IMG/VR virus record: IMGVR_UViG_3300022902_000075
Span: 1-23,905 of that record
DNA: 23,905 nucleotides
Strand: one strand, 5' to 3'
Origin: a virus
A program made the translations under genes and the position numbers. Below the pieces are notes generated by a model. It did not search any database. It saw only the letters and a list, made by a program, of their open reading frames with translations, and was not told the origin of the DNA. Positions 365 to 19,920 of this stretch are shown here, piece after piece. Numbering within the stretch: the stretch's first letter is position 1; each line of letters starts with the position of its first letter.

Positions 365-1270
365 ATGGCGAACGACTCACAACGCGCGACCCTGGCGGAC
401 CTCTGGGTCCCCGTCCCCCCTGACAAAGTCAAGACGAAGCCCGGCGGTCCGCAACGCCCGCCAGTGGACTATGTGGAATGGCCGGTCGCATGGGCCCGCG
501 TCCTGGAATGCGATCCCCACGCGAAGTGGGAAGTGATCGACGTGATCGCGGAACCGCCCGTGGTCATCGTCCACGGACGCCTTACCATCACCGACCCCGA
601 GACGGGGACGCTCCTGTCCCTGGACGCCATCGGGGATGCGCCGCTCCGTGAGAACGGGGCGCCCACTGCGGAGAGCCAGGCGCTCAAGCGCGCGTGCGGG
701 AAGTTCGGCGTGGGGATCAGTCTCTACAAGGCCGAGCTGAACTATGAGGACACGCCGCTCGCGAAGCAGGCCCAGGCGGGGATGAGCGTCCAGGAGGAAC
801 CGCCCGCTCCCCTTCCCGCCGCCGACTCCGTGGCCCCGGCCGTGTCTGAGGCCGTGCGGGAGGTCCGCGAGACGGCCACGCGCCGGGAGAGCGCCCCCGC
901 GCGACGCAACGGCCCGTCCTCGGATCTCCTGACCGGGGACGAACTGCGCGAGATCGCGGACGAACTCCACATACCGGACGATTCCCCCGACGGGACGGAC
1001 CGGCGGAATCGGATCGCCGGGCGGTTGCGGGCCATCTACGGGGATGCAAAGCCGATGGTATCCACCCGTCTCGCAGACCTGCTCCAGGCGAGCATCACCC
1101 CGGCCGCGTTGGAGAGCATCCTCGGCCTACGTCAAGCCGCGATGAACCCCCTGGCGATGACCATCCTGTCCCGTCTCTGCGCCGTCGACGCTCAGTGGGA
1201 CTCCGAAGAGTTCCAGGAGTGGACGCGCGACCTCTGGACCGACTTCCGCAGCGTCCGCCGCTCTGCATAG
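365..1270 (+). CDS. Rad52-like single-strand DNA annealing protein
   Basis: Predicted recombinase of the phage Rad52/Sak-type annealing proteins, which bind single-stranded DNA and pair complementary strands during phage recombination. What is seen: 301 residues. An N-terminal core (about 38-125) runs from YVEW through a VHGRLTI strand and AIGD to TAESQALKRACGKFGVGISL, the signature by which this family is usually recognised (xSxALKRAxxxFGxGxxLY). Residues about 135-185 are a Pro/Ala/Glu-rich linker, followed by a C-terminal part (186-301) I cannot assign. That C-terminus may bind SSB or another partner, as in other annealing proteins, but this is inference. The ATG has a good Shine-Dalgarno (GGAAGG) and a promoter at 300-328. 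No companion exonuclease is visible. DUF1071-type annealing proteins are the closest alternative assignment. Confidence 0.75.
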   Translation: MANDSQRATLADLWVPVPPDKVKTKPGGPQRPPVDYVEWPVAWARVLECDPHAKWEVIDVIAEPPVVIVHGRLTITDPETGTLLSLDAIGDAPLRENGAPTAESQALKRACGKFGVGISLYKAELNYEDTPLAKQAQAGMSVQEEPPAPLPAADSVAPAVSEAVREVRETATRRESAPARRNGPSSDLLTGDELREIADELHIPDDSPDGTDRRNRIAGRLRAIYGDAKPMVSTRLADLLQASITPAALESILGLRQAAMNPLAMTILSRLCAVDAQWDSEEFQEWTRDLWTDFRSVRRSA

Positions 1271-1278
1271 ACTGATGT

Positions 1279-1322
1279 CCGCCAGGGCCCACGCCGTCCG
1301 GGGCGTATGGGTCCTCTGGCGG
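1279..1322 (+). terminator. Strong hairpin after the rad52-like gene (terminator or RNA-processing element)
   Basis: The 74 bases between the Rad52-like gene and the next gene fold into a long stem. CCGCCAG (1279-1285) pairs with CTGGCGG (1316-1322), and the pairing continues inward through GGCCCA and TGGGTCC with small bulges to an inner CGCC/GGCG stem. No clear run of T follows, so termination could be weak or absent. It could equally stabilise the 3' end of the message. Confidence 0.45.
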
Positions 1323-1344
1323 TCCTTCGTGAAGGGACTGAGAC

Positions 1345-1560
1345 GTGAGGTATCCAAACGAAGGGCCTAAGATCCGGGGCCCTGAATGGACCGGCACTTG
1401 CAAAGCCTGTGGGCTCACGTTCATCGCGGACGCGCGGGACTTCTCACATGGTGTCCTTACATGCCCCATGCTTGGATGTAGTGAACGGTTCACGAATGAC
1501 CCAACGCGCGGGATCGAGAAAGTCGACCCCCGGCCCTTCGCTGGAAGGATAGTCCGATGA
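1345..1560 (+). CDS. Small zinc-ribbon-like protein
   Basis: A 71-residue protein starting with GTG at 1345, preceded by the purine-rich GAAGGGA at 1331-1337. It carries two cysteine pairs, C19-x2-C22 (CKACG) and C40-x4-C45 (CPMLGC), about 18 residues apart, the layout of a zinc ribbon or treble-clef-like finger. The tail after residue 50 is basic and Pro-rich. Zinc binding is inferred from the cysteine spacing, and no specific family is recognised. Such small proteins in phage early regions often bind nucleic acid or host proteins, but nothing here shows a partner. Its stop at 1558-1560 overlaps a spurious ATG at 1557. Confidence 0.65.
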   Translation: MRYPNEGPKIRGPEWTGTCKACGLTFIADARDFSHGVLTCPMLGCSERFTNDPTRGIEKVDPRPFAGRIVR

Positions 1561-1566
1561 CCTTGT

Positions 1567-1612
1567 GGCGGCCGAGTGGTTCCATGTGCAGGGTTCGATT
1601 CCCTGGGCCGTC
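1567..1612 (+). other. tRNA-like element (acceptor stem plus T-arm; possible attP core or tRNA remnant)
   Basis: In the 159-base gap between two genes, bases 1589-1605 form a perfect T-arm: a five-base stem CAGGG/CCCTG around the canonical loop TTCGATT, with GGTTCGATTCC matching the B-box consensus. Directly after it, GGCCGTC (1606-1612) can pair with GGCGGCC (1567-1573), seven pairs with one G-U, exactly where an acceptor stem would stack. The 5' side, GGCCGAGTGG, resembles the D-region of Ser/Leu tRNAs. Only 15 bases separate the two halves, so there is no anticodon arm and no encoded CCA. It is not a normal tRNA. It may be a decayed tRNA, a tRNA-derived integration site, or a tRNA-like RNA. 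Confidence 0.45.
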
Positions 1613-1666
1613 TCACGCGGTCGACCTGTTCGTAATGTGCAGGTCTTCCACATCGTGCAAGTCCAA

Positions 1667-1698
1667 GGCCGGGCGTTTCCACAACAGGGCGCCCGGTC
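1667..1698 (+). terminator. Hairpin with CTCTTT tail before the 228-residue gene
   Basis: GGCCGGGCG (1667-1675) pairs with CGCCCGGTC (1690-1698), nine pairs with one G-U and a 14-base loop, and is followed by TCTTT. It lies 21 bases before the ATG at 1720. It looks like a weak intrinsic terminator or attenuator and shares its CCCGGTCTCTTT end with the two other strong hairpins of the window. It would also end a short RNA made from the tRNA-like element upstream. Confidence 0.45.
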
Positions 1699-1719
1699 TC
1701 TTTCAACGCGAGGAACACC

Positions 1720-2406
1720 ATGAGACAACGGAAGACACCGGCGCAACTGGACACGATCGCGGCCGACGGTCAGGTCCGCCTGGGGACTGAGGTCCATCCA
1801 GGGCTCAGAGAAGCGCCGAACTATGAGGCCATGGCCGAACGACTCGGGGAGGACGTGGTCAGTCACCTCTGTCACCGACGGGACGGGTTCCTCTGGCCCC
1901 AGGGAAGTGACGGACCCATCGGCGCCGCGCAGGCGGTCAAGCAGCGGATCGCTTTGTTGGAGCATCAGGCGAAGCACGCGGGGAGCGCGAGACAGGTCAC
2001 ACTGGATCTTAGCGGAGACTCGATGGTGAGTCTGGCCGTGGGCAAGCGGAACGCCGCGCGCCACTGGCTTGATGTCACGGTCCTGGCGATGCGCGCCTAC
2101 TTGGACGCGCTCGGGTTGCAGGAGAAGGAGACCATCCGCGAGATTCAGGAGCGCGAGGAACGCGAAGCGAAGGAGGCCCTGGAACGCGCCGAACGGAAGC
2201 GGACCAGGATGGCTAGAGAAGCGGACGCCGCACAGTCCGCCGAGACCATGTTCAAAGAGGAAGGGGACGCGGCGGCCGGTCACGAGTCCGGCGAGCCCGC
2301 CCCGGATGAGACCCCTGGCGAAGCGAACCGGCGGAAGGCCGCCGAGATAGCCGCCGCCGCCCAGGCGAAGGTGGACGAACGCAACCCGGAGAGCCCGTCC
2401 GCATGA
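1720..2406 (+). CDS. Unknown charged protein with long C-terminal helix
   Basis: A 228-residue protein that I do not recognise. The ATG follows CGAGGA at 1709-1714. Residues about 1-130 look globular and contain HLCHRRDGF near residue 50 and KQRIALLEHQAKHA near 74. Residues about 130-172 are almost entirely Glu, Arg, Lys and Ala (repeated EREEREAKEALERAERKR-like heptads), which predicts a single long helix or coiled coil. The last 55 residues are Ala/Pro/Glu-rich and probably disordered until a final Ala-rich helix. It ends in an ATGA overlap with the next gene, so the two are probably translated together. Its place behind the Rad52-like gene suggests a role in early phage metabolism, nothing more precise. 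Confidence 0.65.
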   Translation: MRQRKTPAQLDTIAADGQVRLGTEVHPGLREAPNYEAMAERLGEDVVSHLCHRRDGFLWPQGSDGPIGAAQAVKQRIALLEHQAKHAGSARQVTLDLSGDSMVSLAVGKRNAARHWLDVTVLAMRAYLDALGLQEKETIREIQEREEREAKEALERAERKRTRMAREADAAQSAETMFKEEGDAAAGHESGEPAPDETPGEANRRKAAEIAAAAQAKVDERNPESPSA

Positions 2407-2645
2407 TCGCCCTTCCCACCATGCGCGCCGATGTGTCCCTCACGTCCTTCGTGTTCGATGAGGGACGTGAGTGGCGTCAGGCGCTCGCCACGACCCCGAC
2501 CACTGAGGACGCAGCCACCGAGGCCGCGATCGTGATCGCAGGAGTGCAGGAGTTCACGCGCGACGCGTCGCCGATGACCGAGGCCCTACTGATCGCGTCG
2601 TTCGTCCGGGGAGTGAGCGCGGCGGGCCTACCACTCGCAGACTAG
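2403..2645 (+). CDS. Unknown small protein, coupled to the upstream gene
   Basis: An 80-residue protein whose ATG overlaps the stop of the preceding gene (ATGA at 2403-2406), typical of translational coupling. It is acidic and Ala/Thr-rich with no cysteines and no membrane segment. The second half (EAAIVIAGVQEFTRDASPMT and onward) looks like two amphipathic helices. No family is recognised. Codon use is G/C-ending like its neighbours, which supports it being real. The next gene starts 11 bases after the stop. Confidence 0.6.
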   Translation: MIALPTMRADVSLTSFVFDEGREWRQALATTPTTEDAATEAAIVIAGVQEFTRDASPMTEALLIASFVRGVSAAGLPLAD

Positions 2646-2656
2646 GAGCAGAGACC

Positions 2657-3505
2657 GTGCCGAAGACTGACATCGAATGGGCCACCCATTCCCTCAACCC
2701 GATTCTCGGATGCTCCCTTGTGTCCGAGGGTTGTCGGAACTGCTACGCGATGGCCCGCGCGCATCTGACCGAGCATAATCCCGCCGTCCACGATGTCGAC
2801 TACTTCCTGGCCGGGGAGACGGAGGTCACGAACGGCCACCCATACGCGGGCCTGACAACTGACGCGCGGAAGTGGTCGGGCGAACTCCACTACATCCCCA
2901 ACCGGGTCGATGAGATCGCGCGATGGACGAAGCCACGGCCGCGCGTGTTCGTCGGGTCGATGTCGGACGTGTTCCACGAGTCCGCGCCGCTCAGGTGGAT
3001 CTCGGAGATCATGGCGGCCGTGCGCGAACGCCCGGACTCGTCGTTCCTGTTCCTGACGAAGCGCCCCGAACGCCTCCTGGAGTGGCAGGCCTACATGGGC
3101 GGGGACTTCCCTCACGATCACGTCTGGCCGCCTAATGCGTGGATAGGCGTGAGCGTGGAGAACCAGGAGACGGCGGACGTGCGAATTCCCATCCTCTCCC
3201 GCGTCCGGGCTCGGGTGAAGTGGTTGAGCATGGAACCCTTGCTCGGGCCCGTGGATCTCGCGCCGTTCCTTCTGCACACGGTAGCGCTCGGTCCCGACCG
3301 CCGCGCCCTGGCTGATTCCGTCCCGGACATCGCGTGGGTAGTAGTCGGTGGGGAGAGCGGCCCCGGCGCCCGCCCGATGGAACCGGAGTGGGCCCGCGAT
3401 CTACGGGATCAATGCGTGGCCCAGGACACGCCGTTCTTCTTTAAGCAGATGACCAAGAAAGGGACCATCCCCCCGGACCTTCTCGTTAGGGAGTTCCCAC
3501 GATGA
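2657..3505 (+). CDS. Phage Gp37/Gp68 family (DUF5131) three-cysteine protein
   Basis: A 282-residue protein with the hallmarks of the phage Gp37/Gp68 family (Pfam PF07505, DUF5131). It opens with IEWATHSLNPILGC and then C19-x6-C26-x2-C29 (CSLVSEGCRNCYA), the three-cysteine motif that likens the family to radical-SAM-type iron-sulfur proteins. Further conserved-looking blocks are PRVFVGSMSDVFH (about 94-106), FLFLTKRPERL (about 130-140), WIGVSVENQ (about 161-169), KWLSMEPLLGPV and WVVVGGESGPGARPM, then FFFKQ near the end. The length is usual. The biochemical activity of the family is not known to me. The GTG start at 2657 has AGGAG twelve bases upstream. A TcmP partner, often found next to this family, is not visible here. 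Confidence 0.85.
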   Translation: MPKTDIEWATHSLNPILGCSLVSEGCRNCYAMARAHLTEHNPAVHDVDYFLAGETEVTNGHPYAGLTTDARKWSGELHYIPNRVDEIARWTKPRPRVFVGSMSDVFHESAPLRWISEIMAAVRERPDSSFLFLTKRPERLLEWQAYMGGDFPHDHVWPPNAWIGVSVENQETADVRIPILSRVRARVKWLSMEPLLGPVDLAPFLLHTVALGPDRRALADSVPDIAWVVVGGESGPGARPMEPEWARDLRDQCVAQDTPFFFKQMTKKGTIPPDLLVREFPR

Positions 3506-4810: not shown

Positions 4811-5917
4811 TTAACCCTCCTGGAACAGCGCCTCGATGGCGGGGAGTATGATCTGGGGAACAACCTCATCCTCGGTCAGATGGGCCCGCGCGAACTCCCG
4901 ACCGGCCGCGCCGATTGCTTCCCGCCGTTCCTCGGCCTGCAGATACTGGCGACACTTCTCCACGGCGTCCGGGATATCCTCATACGTGACCAGGTGTTCC
5001 CCGTCGACCAGTTGGCGGGTCTCGCCGTTGACTTCCCACGGAACGGCCAGGCTCTCCGCGTTGTCCGTGAGACACATGGCGCCGGACAGGAGCGTCATCG
5101 GGACCCGGTCGGACCAGTAGCCTGACGGGTTGATGATGGTGTTTGGGGAGATGGCGGACGTGTTCACCACGATCTTAGACATCCGCGCGACCTTCACCGT
5201 CTCATGGACGGACGCCTCGGGCCGGATGTAGGGCCCGAGTTCCGGGTCGGCCCTATGCCATCCGTTGTGTTCTGGCTCAGGGTGCCCGCCGTAGAGTCGG
5301 ATATTCGTGATCCCTGCGTCCAGGAGCGCGAGCGCGAGTTCCACCCGGTCAATGTCTGTCGGATGGGTCACGGGGTCATACATCGTCCCCCAGGGGAGCA
5401 GGACATCGCACGTAAGACGCGGGAAGCTCGCCGAGTCCGGGAGATCACAGATCATCGGCGTGGCGAACGATGGGTAATAGACCGCGTGGCCGCCGTATTG
5501 CTCCATGTGGCGGACGCTCTCGTGACACTGGCATAGCAGCATGTCGAACGCCGCGCCCTTCTCCACTGCGCCCATGTCGCGCGTGATCCCTTCCCACAAC
5601 GCGTATGGGTGGTATTGGCTCAGTTCCACCAGTTTCGTGGCCGGGAACTCTCGTCGGAAGTCCTCGATGGCGCCGACGGTCGGAAAGAAGGTCGGGAGCG
5701 ACCACCCGAGGACCACGTCCGGCTTCAGCACGGACACCCGCCGCTTCAGTGACTCGAACACATGCTCGGTGGGGTCCGTGTCCGTTCCCCTTGCTTCGTC
5801 CTGAATCGACAGGCGCGGGAACACACTGACCTGGTGGCCCGCCTTCCGCATTCCCTCATGGAGACCGGCGGAACACCTGTCCGCCATCGTGTAGTAGATC
5901 CCGAATAGAATCCTCAT
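4811..5917 (-). CDS. GT-B glycosyltransferase (CgeB / glycosyl transferase group 1-like)
   Basis: 368 residues. The N-terminal half begins MRILFGIYY and has the GT-B Rossmann pattern (a GLHEGMRKAGHQVSVFP helix-strand unit, then KPDVVLGWS at about 66-74). The C-terminal half has the donor-binding layout: GTMYDP near 199, LYGGHPEPE, a SKIVVNTSAISPNTIINPSG stretch, then SDRVPMTLLSGAMCLTDNAE and a closing EEREAIGAAGREFARAHL-like helix. This resembles CgeB-type glycosyltransferases (Glyco_trans_1_2), which use nucleotide-sugar donors. Donor and acceptor cannot be read from sequence. The gene overlaps the upstream double glycosyltransferase by ATGA (5914-5917), so both are probably co-translated and act on the same target. 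Its place in the tail module suggests a phage structural protein as acceptor. Confidence 0.75.
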   Translation of the reverse strand: MRILFGIYYTMADRCSAGLHEGMRKAGHQVSVFPRLSIQDEARGTDTDPTEHVFESLKRRVSVLKPDVVLGWSLPTFFPTVGAIEDFRREFPATKLVELSQYHPYALWEGITRDMGAVEKGAAFDMLLCQCHESVRHMEQYGGHAVYYPSFATPMICDLPDSASFPRLTCDVLLPWGTMYDPVTHPTDIDRVELALALLDAGITNIRLYGGHPEPEHNGWHRADPELGPYIRPEASVHETVKVARMSKIVVNTSAISPNTIINPSGYWSDRVPMTLLSGAMCLTDNAESLAVPWEVNGETRQLVDGEHLVTYEDIPDAVEKCRQYLQAEERREAIGAAGREFARAHLTEDEVVPQIILPAIEALFQEG

Positions 5918-8061
5918 AGATCGCCCCTCTCAATCGCTTCCAGTGTATCGCGAAGCGCGCGATGACGGTAGTCCACCAGTTCCATGGCCGAGCGGATCAT
6001 CAGGGAGTGGAACCAAGGCTCCTGAGCGTCCTGGATCGCCTTCCACGCCATCTGAGCAATTAGGATCGGGTCCGTGGGGTCATCGACCACGAACGACCCC
6101 TCCATCCCGAACCGTCCCGCAGGTGTGCAGGGACCGACCAGGCACGGGGCGCCCAGGAGATAGGACTCCATCGCCGTGTAGTTGAAGGACTCCGCGTGCG
6201 TGACCTGTAGGTTCAGGTCCATCCCGCCCATCTGCTCATAGTAGTCACGTTGGGGAGCATAGCGCGTCTCGAATAGGGACACGTTCCCCGCTATGGCCAT
6301 GTTTAGGGAGTTGAACTGCATTGGGCCGTGGATCTCCACCGGCCGCCCGCTGATCCGGCTCAGTTCGCGTGCCGCTAACATCTGGGTCCAGGTGTTTTTC
6401 CGGGGACTCCACGTGTTCCACATGCCGACCCGGAGTGGGTTCTCCGCTTCCCGTGGACCTCGGCGAAGGCGTTCCAGGGGGTCCGTTCGGATCGGGACGG
6501 GGAGCCATCGACACCCGAGCGCTCGAGCCATCGGAGCGTGGCCGCACAGGACGTGGGACGGCCCCAACGGGATCACCTGCTCGAATACACCGTGTTCTCC
6601 GTCTATCTCTCCCTGGGCCATCGGAGAGTGCAGAACCGCGAACGGGTGGACGCCGCCATCGCGCAGAAGCGCGAACATATCGGCCTGACCGTCGGACCAG
6701 GAGTGCAGAAGGCAATAGCGGACCCCGTCGGGGATCGTTCCCCCAGGGTAGTCTGTGAGGCCGAAGACATCGACCATAGACGCGTTCAGATAGGCCACGC
6801 TGGTATGCTTGACCCCGGAATAGGTCGCGATGGTCGGGAACTGCTCATCCCCCAGGGGACGCCGATGTTCCGTGTCTGCGCGTCTCATTACGCCCTCCAG
6901 TTGGCGAAGCGCGTCCCGCTTCCGAAGCACGGGCCCCGTGACCGACACGCGTCCGCTCAGGACGGACTCCGTGGCCGCCACCCATGCGGGAAGGTCGGCC
7001 GTCGACAACGCGATCTCCGCATGGTCCCGGAGCGCGCCGTTGTCGCTCACGATCGTCGGGATTCCCCACTTTCGGGACTCTTCGACGGCCATTCCGTAGG
7101 TCTCCGTGACCAGGGACGGCGCCAGTAGCGCCTTCGCGCGCGTGAAGTAAGGTCTGGGGTCGGCCCACCCAACGGACTCGCAGTTCTCCGAGTGAATCGC
7201 CGGACTGTCCCCGATGATGACGAACCGTTCCTCGGGGAAGTGGTCCGCCACGCGCCGGACAATGTCGGTCCCCTTCTCGAACCCGGCCCCGATCATCAGG
7301 ATCGCGCCGTCACGCGTCGACGTTCCGAGCGCGTCCTCGGTCGGTGGGGTCAGGACCTCAATCTCACGGCCAGTGGAATGGGCGAACCGGCGCGCGGCAA
7401 ACTCGGAATTGAGGACCAGAGTGTCCGGCGCATCGAACAACGCGCGCCACTCCGGCGCGCTCTCCGGGTCTTCGGGGATTGCGAACGTGTCCGCGTCCAT
7501 CCCCATCCAGAACTGTTGATAGCACAGGAGCGGCGCCAGGCCGCTCAAAGTGGTTAGGCGTAGGTTGAACGCTAGACCCCACCCGAACGTGGTCCAGAGC
7601 GCCACGGGGCGCGCTTCCTGCGACCACTGGCGTATATACGGGATGGCCGCGTCCTGGGGGACGTAGTGATACGCCATCCCCTCCACGTCCTTCTGATCCG
7701 CTTCAGGAATCGGCCGCACGGTCCCGGACCCGTAGGTCGCGCGGACCCATGCGAAGACGTGGACCTCATACCCCATCGTCTGGAGATGCGCCCCGACGGC
7801 TTTCCATACGATCTCCCCGCCGCCGATGCAGTCCGGCCACGCCGTCCCGATCACGAGCCCGACGCGGGCCCCGACGCTCGCGGAGACCTCCACGCCCGGC
7901 GTGTCATACTGCGGCCCCACTACGCGGAAGAGCCGAGGGTCCAGACGGTGAAGGGCCAGGAGTTGCGCGCCCGTCTTCGACGCTAGGCGCGCGGGGATCG
8001 TCATCCGGGATTCATCGCCCGTGACAACGTGGCGGATGGTCAACGGGATACGCCGCGCCAT
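5914..8061 (-). CDS. Double-domain GT-B glycosyltransferase
   Basis: 715 residues from the ATG at 8061. That start lies one base after the stop of the tail hub gene (TAACATG) with GTGGGG upstream; the longer frame starting at 8193 would overlap the hub gene by 131 bases in another frame and is unlikely. The protein contains two GT-B units. Unit 1 (about 65-400): VGLVIGTAWPDCIGGGEIVWKAVG with the glycine loop at 80-82, ILMIGAGFEKGTDIVRR (254-270), VIIGD, and an E-x7-E motif at E320/E328 followed by a WGIPTIVSDNGALRDH block. Unit 2 (about 540-715): LRVGMWNTWSPRKNTWTQ, then E-x7-E at E624/E632 and LLGAPCLVGP. Both E-x7-E motifs are typical of GT4-like retaining enzymes. Tandem units may transfer two successive sugars. 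Confidence 0.8.
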   Translation of the reverse strand: MARRIPLTIRHVVTGDESRMTIPARLASKTGAQLLALHRLDPRLFRVVGPQYDTPGVEVSASVGARVGLVIGTAWPDCIGGGEIVWKAVGAHLQTMGYEVHVFAWVRATYGSGTVRPIPEADQKDVEGMAYHYVPQDAAIPYIRQWSQEARPVALWTTFGWGLAFNLRLTTLSGLAPLLCYQQFWMGMDADTFAIPEDPESAPEWRALFDAPDTLVLNSEFAARRFAHSTGREIEVLTPPTEDALGTSTRDGAILMIGAGFEKGTDIVRRVADHFPEERFVIIGDSPAIHSENCESVGWADPRPYFTRAKALLAPSLVTETYGMAVEESRKWGIPTIVSDNGALRDHAEIALSTADLPAWVAATESVLSGRVSVTGPVLRKRDALRQLEGVMRRADTEHRRPLGDEQFPTIATYSGVKHTSVAYLNASMVDVFGLTDYPGGTIPDGVRYCLLHSWSDGQADMFALLRDGGVHPFAVLHSPMAQGEIDGEHGVFEQVIPLGPSHVLCGHAPMARALGCRWLPVPIRTDPLERLRRGPREAENPLRVGMWNTWSPRKNTWTQMLAARELSRISGRPVEIHGPMQFNSLNMAIAGNVSLFETRYAPQRDYYEQMGGMDLNLQVTHAESFNYTAMESYLLGAPCLVGPCTPAGRFGMEGSFVVDDPTDPILIAQMAWKAIQDAQEPWFHSLMIRSAMELVDYRHRALRDTLEAIERGDL

Positions 8062-8062
8062 G

Positions 8063-10006
8063 TTACCCCACCCGACTCGGACGGTAGATACGGCCCGAGG
8101 CCCACCAGTTGATATGCGCCTTGTATTTATGCGTCCCGGATGTCCGCTCATATCGGATGGTGAGCGTCCGCTCCAGGACCCGGATGTCCACAATCCTGAC
8201 CACTGTTAGGGACTCTTCCGGGCTGTAGAACAGACCCGACGTGGTGTCCTCAATCTGGAGTATGACCGCGCCCGAAGACTCTTCCGACGGCGTGAAGTCC
8301 AGGAGGACATCCTCATCATAGATCGAGCTGGTGGTCCGCTCCGGCGTGATGTTGACACCCTGTTGGGTCCGCTCGATGGAGTCCGCGACCGCGTTCTTGA
8401 GTCCCGCCAGTTGAACCCCGAGGTCTTCCAGGAACGGCTTCGGCTTGTTCTCCAACCGAAGGCGGACGCGAACCCCGCCGTCCGTGGCCCTGCGGTTCTC
8501 TTCCAGAATGCGGAAGTCCTTCGCGATGTCGTTCCCGTCGTGATCCGTGTTCAGGAACGAAGACACGGACACAAGGTCGCCAGGAGCGAAGGACATCAGA
8601 CCATCCGGCGTGTCATATACGTCCAGGACCATACTCTCACGCGGGTCCTTATTGGCCGCCAGATAGGCGTCCGCCTCGGTCTTTAGCTCGGTCATCGTGT
8701 CGACGTTGAACGCCACCGTCTTCTGACGCAGACCGTAGTCCCCCTGACTTGTGGCGTCCTGTAGGACCACGGTGATGGCGTTCCCGCCGGCGCCGGTTCC
8801 GGTGGCGACCAAGTAGTTGACTAGGTCCTCATCATCTCGGTCATAGGCCGTGATGTTGACGTGGTGGCCTTCGATCAGATGATACGTGTCACGGCGATCC
8901 GTTCCCCAGGTGGCGCCCACTGCGCCGGTCGCGGGCTCGGTCTGCACGTCCACTTCCCCGGTCAACCGGACCCGCCATTCCAGTCCGTAGGACTCCGCGA
9001 TACGGTCCAGGACGGCCAGAAGCGTCATCCCGCCGACGGTGAAGTTATCTTCGACCGTCTGGGACACCACGGTCCCCTGCGTTATCCCCGGAATGTCCCG
9101 CCGCGCGATGACCTCGAACCAGTAGATGGCCGGGGTCTTCCGCGTTGCATCGTTCGGGGAGAACTCAAACCTGACGGCAAAGTATCGGCGATCGAGCAGT
9201 CCCGTTATGTCCTCGCCTGCTCCTGACGGGAACGTCGGGAACTGAGCCACCGGGAAGGACCGCCCGGCGATCGCAATATACGTCTCCACGGACCACTTGA
9301 CCTCTTGCTCGTCGTATGAGCCATCGAAGCGCAGAACGTCCATGTCATCTACGGCCGAACCCCAATCATATATGGGGGACTCATAGACCCCGGACCCGCT
9401 GTATGGCGGGATCTCGTTAATCCCGTCCCCGTCGTCGTCCGAGGCCCCGGCCAGGGTCAGGGTCCCGGTGGCGTCTTCCGTCGCGTCCTCGCGGATCAGG
9501 TCCCATACGATCGCGCCGCTCAGGAGCAAGTAGTCGGAAGAGTTCGCGCTCGCCAGGTATCCGTTCCAGGAACACAGTTCGTTAGCATCGTGCGTTATGT
9601 CGCTCGGCGTGGTGGACGTGATCCGCCGATAGTCATAGGACTGCGTCAGGCGCTTCGTGTTCTCCACGGATGAGATGTCCCCACTGAGGACGTAGTCCGC
9701 CGGGAACTCGGTGTCCGCCAACCGCGCGGACAACCCCTCTGCCTCATATCGCACGAACCCCTGGGGCCCGAGCGAGATGACCCCGGCGATCTGTCCGACG
9801 GCGTGGTCCGTCTCGGTCTCGGTCTCATAGGCCCGGACCACTGTCCCGTGGGTGAGCAGGCTGATCTGCGCGTCATCGCGTGGGATGGCGAACCGTATCT
9901 CGCGGGTTCCCGAGTTCGTCCGCGTGAACTCCACGTCCGTCGCGTTGACCAGGATGTCGGCTCGAGACGCGTTCCCTGAGTTGTAGACGTGGATCTGGTA
10001 AGGCAT
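8063..10006 (-). CDS. Tail hub / tail-associated protein
   Basis: 647 residues encoded directly after the Dit-like gene, the usual place of the tail hub (gp27-like or Tal) in siphophages. The N-terminus (MPYQIHVYNSGN, then TDVEFTRTNSGTREIRFAIPR) and the middle part (a QTVEDNFTVGGMTLLAVLDRI helix, EVDVQTEPA, TYHLIEGHHVNI, then MVLDVYDTPDGLMSFAPGDLVSV near 490) match the pattern of siphovirus ReqiPepy6 Gp37-like hub proteins. An inserted domain (about 180-320) contains a calcium-loop-like D190-x-D192-x-D194-G-x-x-E198 and DGSYDEQ at 228-234. The C-terminus is beta-rich. No peptidase or muramidase motif is seen, so lytic activity is not supported. It likely caps the tail tube and links to receptor-binding parts. 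Confidence 0.7.
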   Translation of the reverse strand: MPYQIHVYNSGNASRADILVNATDVEFTRTNSGTREIRFAIPRDDAQISLLTHGTVVRAYETETETDHAVGQIAGVISLGPQGFVRYEAEGLSARLADTEFPADYVLSGDISSVENTKRLTQSYDYRRITSTTPSDITHDANELCSWNGYLASANSSDYLLLSGAIVWDLIREDATEDATGTLTLAGASDDDGDGINEIPPYSGSGVYESPIYDWGSAVDDMDVLRFDGSYDEQEVKWSVETYIAIAGRSFPVAQFPTFPSGAGEDITGLLDRRYFAVRFEFSPNDATRKTPAIYWFEVIARRDIPGITQGTVVSQTVEDNFTVGGMTLLAVLDRIAESYGLEWRVRLTGEVDVQTEPATGAVGATWGTDRRDTYHLIEGHHVNITAYDRDDEDLVNYLVATGTGAGGNAITVVLQDATSQGDYGLRQKTVAFNVDTMTELKTEADAYLAANKDPRESMVLDVYDTPDGLMSFAPGDLVSVSSFLNTDHDGNDIAKDFRILEENRRATDGGVRVRLRLENKPKPFLEDLGVQLAGLKNAVADSIERTQQGVNITPERTTSSIYDEDVLLDFTPSEESSGAVILQIEDTTSGLFYSPEESLTVVRIVDIRVLERTLTIRYERTSGTHKYKAHINWWASGRIYRPSRVG

Positions 10007-10014
10007 GAACCCGC

Positions 10015-11310
10015 CTAGAGATATAGGTCCTTGTGTCGGATCTCAACGTCCAGGTTCCCCGCAGTGGGCGGGGAAAACTCAATATGGTTCAGTCCGGGGA
10101 CAAGCTCGAAGTAGTGGCCGTTTACTTCGTCGTTGTTCTCTTGCCACGACCCGGAGCGCAGGAGTCGCGTCCGCGCGCGGACGTTGTCAATCGCCAAAGA
10201 GTCGGCCGTCGCGTTCGTCAGTTGGGCCGGGCTCTCCAGCTTGAATGAGACGTGTTTGTAACGGGGTTCGCTGGTATTGATGAACTCCCCGGCCACGGAA
10301 CCGCGCTCCAGTTGGAAGTCATCCGCGTAGATCTCTTCGGAGTTGTTGACCACGCGGATCGTGACCGCGAGGAAGGCCGCCGACGCGTGGGACGTATGCG
10401 CTCGGGACGCGCGTTGCCAGGATGTTCCCGTGACCACTGTGTCGCCGGTGGAATTGCTCAGGAACCCGAGCGCCGCGTCGAGTGACTGAATCACGATCCG
10501 CGCCGTGGCGCCTGCGCTCACCCGCGCCACGTAGGCGCTGAACACGTATTGGGTCGACGCGTCACACGGGATGGTTTGCCCCAGGTTGTGATGGGTCCCC
10601 CCACCCGTGCGATGGACCCGGAGACACCGGCCGCCGGTTCGCCCCAGATGCTCGATCACGTCCGGGTCTGAACTCCCGGCCGGGGCGGTCCAGTCATCCG
10701 GCGTGGCGCCGACTCCTTCCTCCACGGATGAGTTCACCACCAGGTTACGGCCCTTCCAGATGACCTCACCGTTTCCCGACGCGGGCCACGTCGATGAGGA
10801 CGGCGTCAGAATCAACTGCGCGGGCCCTGGGACGCTCCCGGCGTATTGAGGGTGGGCGTATCTGATGAGCTTCGTGGAGTTGATGCTCGCCGTTGTAACG
10901 GAGTGGGCAAAGTTCCGATCTAGACCCCAGACCCCGAGCGGGACGATTAGGCGGATCGTCACCTCACGGATGAACGCGTGAAGCCGGTCGGTGTAGCGGA
11001 TGCCACTGAGCCAGACCTCGGCGTGACGGCTCAGGGTATTGTCCGTGAGCGTCATCGCTGTTCCAAAGGTAAAGACCCGCATCAGGACCTCGGTCTTATC
11101 GTCCAGGTCCACCGCGTCCGTCCCATACAGGCGGCCGAACAGCGTGATCTCCTTCTGCCCAATGGGGTTCCCGTATGAACGGACGTAGACACCCATCCGC
11201 CCGGCGATTCGTTCCCCTCGGACGGACGTGACGGTCGACTCCCGCACGATGTCAAACCCCGTGGGGAAGTCATAGAAGATCGTCCCGGAGTCAATCGTTA
11301 GGCGTCCCAT
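10015..11310 (-). CDS. Distal tail protein (Dit-like) with carbohydrate-binding-like insertion
   Basis: 431 residues. Residues 1-150 (MGRLTIDSGT, KEITLFGRLYG, VWLSGIRYTDRLHAF, EVTIRLIVPLGVW) correspond to the N-terminal ring-forming part of Dit proteins, and the end (HYFELVPGLNHIEFS, 399-413) to their C-terminal galectin-like beta domain. Between them, residues about 187-348 look like an inserted jelly roll of the CBM_4_9 type: GRNLVVNSSVE, DDW, GGRCLRVHR, QYVFSAYVA, SWQR and YADDFQLERGSVAGEF. Such evolved Dits with carbohydrate-binding inserts are known in other siphophages and bind the host surface. The ATG at 11310 overlaps the tape measure stop (TAATG). Dit forms the ring between tail tube and hub. 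Confidence 0.75.
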   Translation of the reverse strand: MGRLTIDSGTIFYDFPTGFDIVRESTVTSVRGERIAGRMGVYVRSYGNPIGQKEITLFGRLYGTDAVDLDDKTEVLMRVFTFGTAMTLTDNTLSRHAEVWLSGIRYTDRLHAFIREVTIRLIVPLGVWGLDRNFAHSVTTASINSTKLIRYAHPQYAGSVPGPAQLILTPSSSTWPASGNGEVIWKGRNLVVNSSVEEGVGATPDDWTAPAGSSDPDVIEHLGRTGGRCLRVHRTGGGTHHNLGQTIPCDASTQYVFSAYVARVSAGATARIVIQSLDAALGFLSNSTGDTVVTGTSWQRASRAHTSHASAAFLAVTIRVVNNSEEIYADDFQLERGSVAGEFINTSEPRYKHVSFKLESPAQLTNATADSLAIDNVRARTRLLRSGSWQENNDEVNGHYFELVPGLNHIEFSPPTAGNLDVEIRHKDLYL

Positions 11311-14138
11311 TAGCGCCGTATCCCCTTCGTCCGCTTCGCCTTCGCGAAGGCCCGGCCGAGCCCCACGTCAAACTGGTCCTGTATGATCCCGTCGAGGTCA
11401 TCCAGGTCGGCCACCGTCTGGACGTGGACGTTCTCCACATGGATTGTGGTCCCGCCTATGTCGCCAGGACCGCCCCCTGCTCCCGCCGTGGCGAGTTCCG
11501 CCCCGGTGTCCCCGCCTAATGCTCGGATACCGTCACGGATCTCCGTGAGCAGGTTGTCGCGCCTGTTCCCGAGCGTTGTGAGAACGTCACGGAACGCGCC
11601 GCTGATCGTCGTCACCGTTACCCCGGCCGGTTTGCCCTGGTCGGGAGCAGGAACCGGGAGACCCGTCTCGGGGTTGATCGTGGTCCTCACGAGCCGATCG
11701 TCATTCCGCGTGACGTTCACATGAGCGAACGGGTTGAACTGGTTCTCCAGTTGCTCATCCGCGCCCCGTGCTAGTTGGAACGCCCGGTCCCCTGCATTGA
11801 ACACGGCTTGGAGTTGTTCCCGGAACGCCGGGTCGGTCAGGATGTCGTTCGGGTTGCGCCGAGCCCCACCACCGAGGTCCACGTCGATGAGCTTCCCGAG
11901 TTTCTCAAGCTCTGGCTTAATCAGGGAGTCCACGACCTGAGCAGTGATGGACGCGCCCACTACTTCCTGCATGAACGCCTGGATGGACCGCGTGGCCTGG
12001 TGGCCCGTGAACCCTGCGTCGATCCCCTTCTCAATCGCGCCCGTCAGGGAACCGCTCACCTGGTTCGCGAACCCGGACGCGTCGAAGTCCCCGCCTAAAA
12101 ACTGCTTGGCCGCGTTGATGGAGTTCGTCAGGAACCCGCCCACGTCTCCCTGAGCGCCGCTCACTACGGCGCCCGCCAGAGACCCGCCAACGCCTCGGAA
12201 CCCGCCGGTCATCTCGGAGAGGACCTGTATCCCGATGTCCCCCCACTCGGTCAACGCGTCGGCGAGCTTCCCGAACACGCCTTCGACCTTCTTCCCGAAG
12301 GAGTCGGACCCACGCCCGGCGCGCATGGCTGCAGTGTGAACATCGTCCAGGCTCTTCCCGACGTTCGCCACGTCCTGAGCGGTCCCACGGAAGTCTGCGC
12401 CCTCGATCTCCATCAGGAACGCGCGGAACGCCTGCATCCCTGGATCATTCTCCAGTTCCGTCTGGCGGGCCACGTTCGCGATCTGGTTCCTGGCGCCGAA
12501 CAAGGCGGCCTGTGACGCGCTCCCCGGCTGCCGCCCCATCGAAACGCGCCGATCCGCTGCGGCCTGGGCCGCGCCCGATGGATCTCGCAGGAACCGCGCC
12601 CCGCCCTCGATCATCTCACGCAAAGCGCGAGGAACCACCGACAGAGATGACTGGCGAGCCCCGTGCAGGGCCCGATCCGTGGCGCGTGGGAGTAGTCGGT
12701 TCTCGGGAGTGATGCGCGCCCCGGCCCTCGGCCGTCGACGCGTCAGAGTCGGAGCGACGATGGTCGGGAGATCCTTCGCGGCCGCGTCGGCGAGCTTCCG
12801 CGCCTTTGCCGCTTCCGCGAACGCGTCCCGCTGGATCTGCTCAAAGCTCTTGGGCCGCTGGCTCAGGACGTTGTTCCTGAGTGCTGTCACGGTGGCCGCG
12901 TCGGAGCCAGGTGGGACCGCGAAGTTCCGCAGCGCCGTTACGCGTTGCTCGGACGCCTTCGCGGCCGCTGCCTGTTGCTTCGCCAGGGTCTCCTGGACCT
13001 CAGTGGTGGGGAGTCCCTTGAGGAACAACCCCGCGGGGGAGAACCGTCCCAACAGGATCGCCGCGTCAACCATCAGGGCCAACGCTTCCGCCGTCTTCCC
13101 TGCGACCGTCGCGATCGCCTTCAGGGACGTGACTATTTCATCCTTATTGCCCTCTAGGGCCCGCGTCAGGCGTTCGATTGCGTTCCCGAGCCCCTTCTCA
13201 CCTTCAACCTGTCCGGCCGCTTCGTTGAATATGTCCCCGACGGCTCGGGCGAAGTCGCGAAGCGCGGGCATGGCGCCTTCGGTCAGGTTCGCGACGAACG
13301 TCTCCCAGGCGTCCCCCATGTTGGAGATCGCCCCGACCGTGGTCTCGCTCATCCGGTTCGTGGCGCCCGCAATCGGGCCCTCGGTGTTGACCATCGTGTC
13401 CAGGAGCGCCGCGCGGAACTCGGGGAGCGTCAGTTTCGTCAGGTCCTCAATGCCCTTGAAGGACTTGATTAAGTTGAGGATGCCACGCTCGCGCAGGATG
13501 TCGGCCGCGCCCGCGCCACCGGCGAACGCGCGCCCCATGGCGGATGCGCCCTCGGTCGCGGACAGACCCATGAAAGCCGACAGGTCCGCGACCGCCTTCG
13601 TGGTCCCCTCGATGTTCTTCGTGAATTGCCCACCCATGAACGCCGCGAGCGTGGTCCCGGCCTCGGACACGTCCCGGACGCTGAACGCCGTAGTGGCCGC
13701 GATCCGGCGGAAGGCGTCCATGGCCTTCTGCGCCCCGGCCGCTGATCCCACAACGCCCTGGAGACGGACCTCCATGGTCTGAAAACTGAGGTTGAGACCT
13801 ATACCGGCCTTGTGAGCGTCCACGATCCCGCGCGCGAACGAACTGACCACGCGCAGGGCGCCGCCGACGGCGCGGTCCACCAGGGAGAACTGGAGCGCGA
13901 GCTTCGATAACGACCCGGTCATCTCCTTCGTCTGGGCCGTCGCCTTCCGCTGGCGGCCACCGTAGTCCTGGATGGCCTTCCCCACGTCATCTATCTCGCC
14001 TTCGGCGTCCTGTCCTTCGTTGGCGAGCGCGGAGAGCGCCGTGGTCATCTGCTTGGACGCTTTGACCGCCTGAGACATCGCGCGGGAGAACCCGCGCGTG
14101 TCGCCGTCTATCTCGAATTGCAGGTGTTCATCGGCCAT
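11310..14138 (-). CDS. Tape measure protein
   Basis: 942 residues; the protein lies inside the tail tube, sets its length and is ejected with the DNA. The N-terminus is helical and Ala/Gln/Lys-rich. Residues about 105-290 carry the conserved tape measure domain, with a LSFQTMEVRLQGVVGSAA stretch, FRRIAATTAFSVRDVSEA, LAAFMGGQ, LSAFMGLSATEGASAMGRAF and an AISNMGDAWETFVANLTEG block. After that come long helical, Ala-rich stretches and Gly-rich segments (about 640-740), followed by a C-terminal region with NPFAHVNVTRND. At the usual 1.5 angstrom per residue the tail would be about 140 nm long. It starts one base after the stop of the frameshifted T frame and is the longest gene of the window, as in other long-tailed phages. 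Confidence 0.93.
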   Translation of the reverse strand: MADEHLQFEIDGDTRGFSRAMSQAVKASKQMTTALSALANEGQDAEGEIDDVGKAIQDYGGRQRKATAQTKEMTGSLSKLALQFSLVDRAVGGALRVVSSFARGIVDAHKAGIGLNLSFQTMEVRLQGVVGSAAGAQKAMDAFRRIAATTAFSVRDVSEAGTTLAAFMGGQFTKNIEGTTKAVADLSAFMGLSATEGASAMGRAFAGGAGAADILRERGILNLIKSFKGIEDLTKLTLPEFRAALLDTMVNTEGPIAGATNRMSETTVGAISNMGDAWETFVANLTEGAMPALRDFARAVGDIFNEAAGQVEGEKGLGNAIERLTRALEGNKDEIVTSLKAIATVAGKTAEALALMVDAAILLGRFSPAGLFLKGLPTTEVQETLAKQQAAAAKASEQRVTALRNFAVPPGSDAATVTALRNNVLSQRPKSFEQIQRDAFAEAAKARKLADAAAKDLPTIVAPTLTRRRPRAGARITPENRLLPRATDRALHGARQSSLSVVPRALREMIEGGARFLRDPSGAAQAAADRRVSMGRQPGSASQAALFGARNQIANVARQTELENDPGMQAFRAFLMEIEGADFRGTAQDVANVGKSLDDVHTAAMRAGRGSDSFGKKVEGVFGKLADALTEWGDIGIQVLSEMTGGFRGVGGSLAGAVVSGAQGDVGGFLTNSINAAKQFLGGDFDASGFANQVSGSLTGAIEKGIDAGFTGHQATRSIQAFMQEVVGASITAQVVDSLIKPELEKLGKLIDVDLGGGARRNPNDILTDPAFREQLQAVFNAGDRAFQLARGADEQLENQFNPFAHVNVTRNDDRLVRTTINPETGLPVPAPDQGKPAGVTVTTISGAFRDVLTTLGNRRDNLLTEIRDGIRALGGDTGAELATAGAGGGPGDIGGTTIHVENVHVQTVADLDDLDGIIQDQFDVGLGRAFAKAKRTKGIRR

Positions 14139-14139
14139 A

Positions 14140-14738
14140 TCAGTCCCCCATCACCTTCCCGAACTTCTCGGACCACTCCGAGGACGTGGGGATGGCGGCC
14201 AAAAGACGGCGCGTCTGGGTCGGAGTAAGGGCCAGGAAGTCGTTCAGGGAATGGTGGTAAAAATGGCAGAACATCCCGCACAGTCCCCAGAGGTCTAGGT
14301 CGCGGGGTTGTCTGTCCCCGCTGGTTCGTTTCCCGCCGTCTCCCCGTCATCGTCCTCGGGGACCATGTCGCGGCCCGTCGACGTGATCGCGTAGATCCGC
14401 CCTAGCAGGCGGTCATGCTCGGGGTCATCCGGCGTGAAACACCGCGCCACGTCATCGAACCCGAGGTCCGGGTAGGTCTCGCGGACCCCGACCGTGGCCG
14501 TGGCGAACATCCGCCGCATGTTGCGGAACGCGCGGGCGGGGTCTTCTGGCGTGTCGGGGTCCAGGAGGTCCACCCATTCTACGTTCGTCCCCTCCACGCC
14601 CATCGGGGTCAGGATGTCCTGGACCGCGAACATCTCGAGCCAGGAGAACTCCCGGAACGTGCAGGCCCCGATACCGGGGACCTCCAGGGTGATCCCCGCG
14701 TTCGTCATCTCCCGCCCCGTTGCTTCCATCGTCGCCAT
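14140..14738 (-). CDS. Tail assembly chaperones G and GT (programmed -1 frameshift)
   Basis: Two products are predicted from one start. G (14295-14738, 147 residues) opens with EATGREMTNAGITLEVPGIG and has the small alpha-beta look of siphophage tail chaperones. GT (about 199 residues) arises when ribosomes slip back one base at GGGAAAC (14334 to 14328), which lies in phase as G GGA AAC. G codons 1-137 are then joined to 62 codons of the -1 frame that end with TGA at 14142-14140. The T part reads DLDLWGLCGMFCHFYHHSLN and then LTPTQTRRLLAAIPTSSEW, the kind of helical T domain expected. It ends just before the tape measure start. GT binds the tape measure and recruits tail tube subunits in lambda, and the gene order is the same here. 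Confidence 0.88.
14302..14334 (-). promoter_or_regulatory. -1 ribosomal frameshift signal (slippery heptamer plus hairpin)
   Basis: On the minus strand GGGAAAC (14334-14328) matches X XXY YYZ in the frame of G. Six bases later GCGGGG (14321-14316) pairs with CCCCGC (14307-14302) around an eight-base loop, a suitable stimulatory stem. The G stop codon TAG follows at 14297-14295. Lambda uses GGGAAAG at the same place. Confidence 0.85.
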
Positions 14739-14764: not shown

Positions 14765-15412
14765 CTAGTTGTCCTGGTTGCGGTAGTAGATCGTCCCGGT
14801 TCCGCGCATGTTGATCGTGGCCTCGGTCACGGCTCCCGCGCGCGGGCCCGCCACGGCGTATTCCTCGATCAGCATCAGCGCCACGTATCTCTGGACCGCG
14901 CCCGCCGTCGTGTTAATGAAGAACTCGACGGGGAACTCCCGGTCATCCATGTCCCGGAGACCGGCCGCCGCGCTGACGCTCATGTTTTCATCCTGCCAAT
15001 GGCGTTGACAGACAGCCGACATCCCCACGACGGACCTCTCGAACTGCTTCCACGAGTCGCCGAACTCGGTCACGTCGATGAGTTCGGAATCCACGGTGAG
15101 CGCGAACTCGTGGAATCCCGCCACCTTCGCCATCGTCCACAAGGCGCTTCCCGTGGACGTAACCGTTGTGGTCGCGCCCGCGCCCGTTATCTCTAGCTCC
15201 CCCACGGGCGGATTCACGGACACAACGCTCCCGGCCGCTGGCGTGAAGTCCCCGGGAACTACGTCATAGTTGAAGGATCGCAGGATGCGCGTGGCCTCTG
15301 TCTGCACGACGTAGAAGTCCGTGGCGCCGATCTGCGCGAAGGTCACGCTGGACATATCGCTCAGGCCGACCGGGGCGTATATCGCCCCGGTAATGCCGGT
15401 GTAATGGGCCAT
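14765..15412 (-). CDS. Tail tube protein, second paralogue
   Basis: 215 residues beginning MAHYTGITGAIYAP. It resembles the preceding gene product in order and motif: a strand followed by SELIDVTEFGDSWKQFERSV (about 109-128) against KELLEATELGDAFRQYAQGV in the other, and FPVEFFINTTAGA (near 159-171) against VNFFIDTTASA. These features fit beta-barrel major tail proteins, which polymerise into the tube. The extra length lies mainly in the N-terminal half (about 20-90). It is followed by the chaperone genes G/GT, the normal context for the major tail protein. GAGGGG precedes the ATG. Which of the two copies builds the bulk of the tube cannot be told; the other could be a minor variant or decorate the tube. 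Confidence 0.75.
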   Translation of the reverse strand: MAHYTGITGAIYAPVGLSDMSSVTFAQIGATDFYVVQTEATRILRSFNYDVVPGDFTPAAGSVVSVNPPVGELEITGAGATTTVTSTGSALWTMAKVAGFHEFALTVDSELIDVTEFGDSWKQFERSVVGMSAVCQRHWQDENMSVSAAAGLRDMDDREFPVEFFINTTAGAVQRYVALMLIEEYAVAGPRAGAVTEATINMRGTGTIYYRNQDN

Positions 15413-15430: not shown

Positions 15431-15916
15431 TTAGAGCAAGGTTCCGCCATAGAGCGGGGTCCCGTTGCCGGTGAGTTCCACGGTCATCGTGGTCAGACCC
15501 GCCCCGGCCGTGATGTTGACCTGACCGACGAACATTGCCCCGTAGTAGGCTTTCCCCGCGCTAGCCGTCGTGTCGATGAAGAAGTTCACCTGGATCTGGC
15601 CGGGACTCCCCGCCGTCACGAGCGTCCCGCCGAAGGACGCCGCCATGATTCCCTCAAGCAGTTCGTCCTGCATCACTGTGACATCGTCGGCGTCATAGTG
15701 CATCGTCAGGGTTCCGCTCCACTCCCCAACGCCCTGAGCATACTGGCGGAAGGCGTCCCCGAGTTCGGTAGCCTCAAGGAGTTCCTTCCCGATCGTCAGG
15801 TCGAACGTGGCAGTCTGTCCGGCCACGGTCGCGATCGTCGCCGTGGTCGGCGCAGTCAAGGTCCCACTCGGCGTGAGCAGGCTAACCTTCGCCTTGATCT
15901 GTGTGTAATGGGCCAT
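15431..15916 (-). CDS. Tail tube protein, first paralogue
   Basis: 161 residues beginning MAHYTQIKAKVSLL. It shares the MAHYT start, the ELLEATELGDAFRQY helix-turn (about 46-60) and the NFFIDTTASAGKAYYGAMF segment (about 110-128) with the next gene, showing a duplication. The compact beta-rich layout with one conserved helix is that of siphophage tail tube proteins. Its ribosome binding site GGAGGGG is strong and lies at the end of the upstream gene, consistent with high expression. It is shorter and simpler than the paralogue, so it is a reasonable candidate for the main tube subunit, but the sequence alone does not decide this. Confidence 0.75.
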   Translation of the reverse strand: MAHYTQIKAKVSLLTPSGTLTAPTTATIATVAGQTATFDLTIGKELLEATELGDAFRQYAQGVGEWSGTLTMHYDADDVTVMQDELLEGIMAASFGGTLVTAGSPGQIQVNFFIDTTASAGKAYYGAMFVGQVNITAGAGLTTMTVELTGNGTPLYGGTLL

Positions 15917-18542: not shown

Positions 18543-19736
18543 TTACGCCTCGGGAAGTGATCCGCCTTGCCAGGTCACGCCGTCACACCAGAGGACGCCG
18601 ATCTCATCCTGGTCAATCACGACGATGGTGGACGCCCCGTCCTTCACGGTCAGGGCCTCGGCCGCGTTGGCCGCGTTGGCAATACGGAACTCCAGTCCCG
18701 CCAGAGCGATCGCGGCCACCGGGAGCGTAACGTCCCGAGCCGCGCCGCCTGGGTCGAGTGTCTGGAACTTGGGCGAAGTCGCCGCGAGGACGTGGGTGGC
18801 CGACAGGGTCTCGATATTCACGGCCCCACGGGTGTCTCCTGGGATGAACACATGCCACCCGGTCCCGTCGGACAGGAACTCCCCGATCATCCCCGCGCCT
18901 AGCGTGGCCTGGATCGTGGTGTCGCTGTCTTCGTAGACGTTCAGGAGTTCGTTTGCGTCCGCCGAGTTCTTGACCGTGAACCGGATACCGATGGCGCTCG
19001 CCTCGGTCGGGAGTGTCACGGTTCTGTCCGCGCCACCTGGGTCTAGGATGTGCGTGGGCGGCTCGAGCAGCGTCAGGACCCGCGTGGCGGCCAGCGTCTC
19101 GATGTTGATCGCCTCGGCGCGGCCCGTGAGGCTGTATTGCCACGCCACACCGTCCGACACCACGACCCCGGTCATGTTCGGCCCGATGGCGAACTGTGCC
19201 GTGGCCCCGGCGTTCTTGACCGTGATGATCTCCAGCGCGTTCGCCGCGTTGGTTATCGAGTAGGCGATCCCGATGGACGCCGCCACGGCCGGGAGCGTCA
19301 CGTCCCGATCCGCCGCAGGGTCTAGGATCTGGAAGTATGCGGACGCGGCCGTGAGCGTCAGGTTCGCGGCCAGCGTTTGCTTGTTGACCTCGGCGCGGCC
19401 GCCTTCGCCACCGCCGCTGAAGTCGATCCAGGAAGTCCCGTCACACCGCAACGTGGCCGCCTGACCGCGCCCGAGCGTGGCCACCGTGGCGGCCGCGTCA
19501 TCGTTGATGGTCAGGGTCTCATCCGCGTCGGCCGCGTTGTAGAAGTGCATCGCCAGGCCGTCGCACACTGATTCCGCCGGGAGCGTGACCGTTCGGTCTG
19601 CCCCACCCGGATCTAGGAACTGGATCATCGGGGACGACACGGTGAGCGTGGTCGCGCCGGTGAGGGTGGTGGTGGCGTGAGCCAGGAACACACCCTCGCG
19701 GAACTCCGTCGGACGCCGGATCAGATCACGAGACAT
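18543..19736 (-). CDS. Four-repeat virion surface protein (head fibre or decoration type)
   Basis: 397 residues from the ATG at 19736, which has GGAAGGGGG upstream and overlaps the previous gene by 11 bases; the longer frame from 19871 is an out-of-frame shadow of that gene. After 17 N-terminal residues the protein is four imperfect repeats of 93-97 residues (about 18-112, 115-205, 208-300, 304-397). The repeat core is LDPGGADRTVTLP, then a strand, NAADANE, LTV, a hydrophilic turn and CDGTSW. Beta-solenoid or beta-sandwich units are likely. It follows the capsid gene and the 64-residue gene, so a head decoration or fibre, perhaps attached through the short N-terminus, is the best guess. No enzyme motif is seen. 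Confidence 0.65.
   Translation of the reverse strand: MSRDLIRRPTEFREGVFLAHATTTLTGATTLTVSSPMIQFLDPGGADRTVTLPAESVCDGLAMHFYNAADADETLTINDDAAATVATLGRGQAATLRCDGTSWIDFSGGGEGGRAEVNKQTLAANLTLTAASAYFQILDPAADRDVTLPAVAASIGIAYSITNAANALEIITVKNAGATAQFAIGPNMTGVVVSDGVAWQYSLTGRAEAINIETLAATRVLTLLEPPTHILDPGGADRTVTLPTEASAIGIRFTVKNSADANELLNVYEDSDTTIQATLGAGMIGEFLSDGTGWHVFIPGDTRGAVNIETLSATHVLAATSPKFQTLDPGGAARDVTLPVAAIALAGLEFRIANAANAAEALTVKDGASTIVVIDQDEIGVLWCDGVTWQGGSLPEA
18620..19690 (-). repeat. Four imperfect tandem repeats of 279-291 bases inside the surface-protein gene
   Basis: The plus-strand anchor TCTAGG (or TCGAGT) begins at 19612, 19321, 19042 and 18754, spacings of 291, 279 and 288 bases, all multiples of three. 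A nearby GGGAGCGTnAC segment recurs in each unit. The limits given are approximate. Confidence 0.75.
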
Positions 19737-19920
19737 TGGCGGCCCCCTTCCTGCGCGACCGCGTAAACAGGTCCACGAAGCGCCGCCGCTGGAGACCGTC
19801 CACCTTCCTGGCGACCTTCGGGTCCGCCATGTTCGGTGAGAAACGGTCCCCGGCCGCGTATTCGACTCCATCGAACCGGAACGGGCGCCGCGCGTATAGC
19901 GTGTCGGTCGGAGCGTTCAT
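19726..19920 (-). CDS. Unknown small head-region protein
   Basis: 64 residues from the ATG at 19920, which has AGAGGA upstream; the frame is open to an ATG at 19947, but that start has no ribosome binding site. The sequence DTLYARRPFRFDGVEYAAGD at about 6-25 looks like a small beta unit followed by a basic C-terminal half (RKVDGLQRRRFVDLFTRSRRKGA). Phage proteins of this length with an FxxxG-xxYxxGDxF element are often found after the major capsid gene, but their job is unknown to me. The basic tail might touch DNA or the capsid interior. Confidence 0.6.
   Translation of the reverse strand: MNAPTDTLYARRPFRFDGVEYAAGDRFSPNMADPKVARKVDGLQRRRFVDLFTRSRRKGAANVS

Follow-up and report, generated by a model that had tools for sequence, protein, structure and literature searches.

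In phage lambda, the tail chaperones G and GT are made at a ratio of 30:1, with the G part binding the tape measure protein and T binding the major tail protein (PMC5009743). Although their sequences show low similarity, long-tailed phages widely conserve this G/T frameshift (PMC5009743). GGGAAAC has been proposed as the slip site of the chaperone gene preceding the tape measure gene in Caulobacter phage Colossus (PMC3556154) and Burkholderia phage KL1 (PMC3483164), and the g-t shift site of Haloarcula virus HCTV-1 is G_GGA_AAC (PMC5009743). In Lactococcus phage TP901-1, whose gpG precedes the tape measure gene, the heptamer at the 3′ terminus of gpG is GGGAAAG, and both gpG and gpGT have been shown to be necessary for infectious phage (PMC4493119).

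We analysed a 23,905-base virus record (IMGVR_UViG_3300022902_000075, hereafter the window) of 65% G+C that carries its structural genes on the minus strand; its source phage is uncultured, and the group to which it belongs is represented only in metagenomes. In this phage, both G and GT are very probably produced through a programmed -1 ribosomal frameshift at G_GGA_AAC, close to where the tail-chaperone gene ends. Position, phase, heptamer, hairpin, -1 coding signature, filled intergenic gap and the layout of relatives all fit a lambda-type G/GT system, which supports the interpretation put forward in the original prediction.

The locus resembles lambda G/GT in gene order, in the -1 direction and in the placement of an X_XXY_YYZ heptamer late in the upstream open reading frame (PMC5009743; Xu et al. 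2004 cited there), and in a second frame that ends at the start of the tape measure gene, H in lambda (PMC5009743). Unlike in lambda, a hairpin directly follows the slip site, T comprises only 62 aa, and no sequence similarity was found between the two systems. We take the lambda heptamer to be G_GGA_AAG, whereas the heptamer here ends in C. TP901-1, whose genome is low in G+C, likewise differs in the last heptamer base and has a longer T. Colossus and KL1 share GGGAAAC with G of the window, although KL1 has an extra gene ahead of its tape measure gene, and HCTV-1, which has an archaeal host, shares G_GGA_AAC; these three are likened to the present locus by published site alone. As the second slip codon, AAC is less effective than AAG in E. 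coli (A_AAA_AAC versus A_AAA_AAG; PMC5009743).

G, the zero-frame product of 147 aa (14295..14738, minus strand), was assigned by its open reading frame, its coding score and its location, with tail-tube-like genes on one side and the tape measure gene on the other. The tape measure gene (11310..14138, minus strand) encodes 942 aa and was recognized by matches to phrog_167 (E 7e-10) and TMP_3 (8.6e-9, under the TMP_3 Pfam cut-off). A gap of 156 nt, otherwise unfilled, separates G from the tape measure gene and is occupied by the T frame (14140..14328, minus strand). As originally described, this -1 frame runs for 62 codons to a TGA (14142-14140); the stop lies one base from the tape measure ATG at 14138, not two.

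Codons 135-137 of G read GC[G GGA AAC], placing G_GGA_AAC (14334-14328, minus strand) in X_XXY_YYZ phase, 37 nt ahead of the G stop. The six-base spacer (GAACCA, 14327-14322) and the perfect six-pair stem (14321-14316 with 14307-14302) that had been predicted along with this phase were likewise confirmed. The sequence 3′ of the spacer is GCGGGG-ACAGACAA-CCCCGC, in which the stem GCGGGG/CCCCGC encloses an 8-nt loop (14302..14321, minus strand), followed by the four nucleotides GACC and the TAG stop of G (14295..14297, minus strand). RNA folding assigns the isolated hairpin a predicted energy of -11.3 kcal/mol, making it a candidate frameshift stimulator; stimulatory RNA structures of this kind are common among G/GT systems, though not universal. 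A perfect 6-bp stem at such spacing occurs in 1.5% of shuffles and at 2.7% of positions, which is moderately unusual, and the fold of the whole region is ordinary (MFE z only -0.89). By eye, the loop could also form a possible pseudoknot with downstream sequence (ACAG with CUGU), of only 4 bp.

The heptamer alone is unsurprising, as GGGAAAC occurs in 3 copies in the window against 3.14 expected. In-phase heptamers with A or T as second triplet are rare, numbering 3 among 7510 codons. We examined the 44 ends of open reading frames of at least 80 aa on the minus strand of the window: a -1 extension of 35 codons or more is present at 25 of them, and only one of these 25 also has an in-phase slippery heptamer. 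That single end is G, before the tape measure gene. Each feature is weak by itself, whether heptamer frequency, open off-frame or overall fold, and the joint evidence is stronger. A second in-phase G_GGA_AAC lies inside a distal-tail-like gene (10771-10777, minus strand); since the -1 frame there closes after three codons, this copy is probably either a chance occurrence or the source of a truncated by-product.

Read from 14328, the T frame encodes RTSGDRQPRDLDLWGLCGMFCHFYHHSLNDFLALTPTQTRRLLAAIPTSSEWSEKFGKVMGD. Its assignment combines translation, codon signature, an AF2 model and the control for extensions and heptamers described above. Past the G stop, G+C content by codon position in the -1 frame is 0.51/0.47/0.82, compared with 0.58-0.70/0.45-0.51/0.75-0.85 for reference genes other than G, and the codon score of this frame, +0.17 bits per codon, exceeds the 99th percentile of wrong-frame windows, yet is low among in-frame windows. 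Only the -1 frame combines the phage codon-position pattern with a positive codon score in this region; judged by this signature, T is protein coding. G itself scores 0.52 bits per codon, with a GC3 of 0.89. A +1 or -2 shift was also considered and rejected, the corresponding frames past the G stop having no coding signature.

The single-sequence AF2 model of T predicts three helices (pLDDT 79.5), the first spanning residues 13-32, and comparison of this model with PDB structures gave no match; the corresponding model of G (pLDDT 45) is unreliable. The fusion is predicted to comprise 137 + 62 = 199 aa, with DMVPEDDDGETAGNR as the predicted tryptic junction peptide of GT and DMVPEDDDGETAGNEPAGTDNPAT as the C-terminal peptide of G. 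Ordinary gene finding would miss T.

Searches with the whole tape measure protein retrieved no relatives. A query restricted to its conserved domain recovered 26 loci, most of them 52-57% identical in residues 110-280. Every locus with enough upstream sequence, except the very weak match L039, has a G-like open reading frame overlapped by a -1 frame, whose end falls within a span from 5 nt ahead of the tape measure ATG to 17 nt past it. Sorted by eye into eight apparent groups according to how closely their G and T sequences resemble one another, the relatives have an in-phase X_XXY_YYZ heptamer with A or T as second triplet in six of the eight groups (A_AAA_AAG, T_TTT_TTC, T_TTT_TTT or A_AAA_AAC). 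In nine representatives scanned over their full length on the tape measure strand, each such signal falls at the gene preceding the tape measure gene and nowhere else. The T segments of relatives are longer, most exceeding 100 aa, compared with 62 aa here.

L034 and L036 have the overlapping -1 frame and no in-phase X_XXY_YYZ heptamer with A or T as second triplet; these two may use a non-standard slip site or express the -1 frame in some other way. In the group of L021 (for example, L023:5364-5376), the G stop overlaps a T-frame ATG (TTAATG) a few bases past A_AAA_AAG. This arrangement suggests that T could arise there by both slippage and coupled initiation, and that re-initiation may operate on top of frameshifting in this group of tape measure relatives.

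The G and T proteins of the relatives do not align with those of the window even in HMM-HMM comparison, and the support they provide is therefore architectural and not a matter of sequence homology. Searches of G and T against IMG/VR, a phage collection, Pfam, PHROGs and PDB sequences found no sequence relative. Two scans of bacterial and archaeal genomes likewise gave no relative. The search for T-domain homologues, named beforehand as a check, was thus negative in every collection searched. At the level of sequence this is literally the outcome named beforehand as a refutation; yet chaperones of this kind are known to have little sequence in common from phage to phage (PMC5009743), and the gene layout is retained in the tape measure relatives. 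Searches with the capsid protein and the tail-tube candidates did recover closer kin, of which L003 and L005 are identical and L004 and L010 are about 75% identical in the capsid protein. The contigs of all these kin stop ahead of G, those of L003, L004 and L010 just before it, and no DNA-level relative spans the slip site; isolate phages with a related capsid have no tail gene in common with the window at E 1e-3.

The main competitor to frameshifting is that T is a separate 44-aa protein, which would begin MFCHFYHH, made without any frameshift by coupled re-initiation at an in-frame ATG within T (14272..14274, minus strand), 20 nt past the G stop. The claim that T has no start of its own in a good context proved overstated: an SD-like GGGG lies about 10 nt upstream of this ATG, and its predicted SD duplex (-5.5 kcal/mol) is approximately equal to that at the start of G (-5.6 kcal/mol). 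Initiation at 14274 would nonetheless drop 18 residues, the first third of T, and cut the predicted helix 13-32 after six residues, and it leaves the in-phase heptamer and the stem unexplained. Tape measure relatives moreover carry heptamers at the equivalent place, which counts against this reading. We consider this explanation improbable.

Even less plausible is that the open -1 frame and the heptamer coincide by chance in a 65% G+C genome, leaving the 156-nt gap untranslated. An open frame of this length is weak evidence by itself, as 17.5% of off-frame stretches of 62 codons contain no stop, and the heptamer is no more frequent in the window than expected; against chance stand the codon signature, confined to the T frame, the occurrence of the combination at 1 of 44 reading-frame ends, and an equivalent blind outcome in related loci. 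The locus is known from a metagenomic contig, so that a one-base sequencing or assembly error might have split a single continuous gene. The site of such an error would have to coincide exactly with a textbook in-phase heptamer that has a stem behind it at typical spacing; the two-frame layout also recurs in related loci, leaving this the most remote of the explanations.

Under programmed frameshifting, most ribosomes would terminate at the TAG of G, giving the 147-aa protein as the main product. A minority, stalled by the downstream hairpin, would re-pair from GGA/AAC to GGG/AAA, moving back one base, and continue through T to produce the 199-aa GT as a minor product. By analogy with lambda, the role of G would be to coat the tape measure protein, and that of the T tail in GT to recruit tail-tube subunits. 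The occurrence of slippage, its ratio and these chaperone roles are inferred, while the site, its phase, the predicted fold of the hairpin, the coding -1 frame and the layout conserved in relatives are seen in the sequence itself.

The mechanism has been known for decades, and what is new here is a G/GT pair without detectable sequence relatives. The pair is peculiar only in having a short T, in lacking sequence relatives and in lying downstream of two similar tail-tube candidates. It is conceivable, though unlikely, that G and T represent a previously undescribed chaperone family whose T arm, at 62 aa, is unusually short and which works with two paralogous upstream tail-tube candidates, T perhaps choosing between them or initiating a two-subunit tube. 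The result provides a well-supported G/GT pair for phages that are represented only in metagenomes, and its main use is in annotation: a slip signal combined with a tape measure gene can locate chaperones where no profile matches.

The two adjoining genes upstream of G (14765-15412 and 15431-15916, minus strand) encode paralogues of about 29-32% identity, both starting with MAHYT. Their products gave no match to a named family; only their position and their similarity to each other mark them as tail-tube candidates. Among the kin, L003 and L004 likewise carry both.

Several further features of the window were observed outside the chaperone region. In a short module on the opposite strand (365-3505, plus strand), one product may be a single-strand annealing protein (phrog_3290, E 2e-4), and another is a strong member of phrog_2045, a family of unassigned function. 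Two large genes lie at the end of the tail module (4811-8193, minus strand); the second matches phrog_2170, phage glycosyltransferases, weakly (E 6e-5). Because 131 bases of the longest reading of this second gene overlap with its neighbour, translation probably begins further inside. The gene after that of the capsid protein (18543-19871, minus strand) contains about four similar repeats, with four stretches matching phrog_32934. Its counterpart in L004 (7003-7725) appears shorter, and the number of repeats seems to differ among kin.
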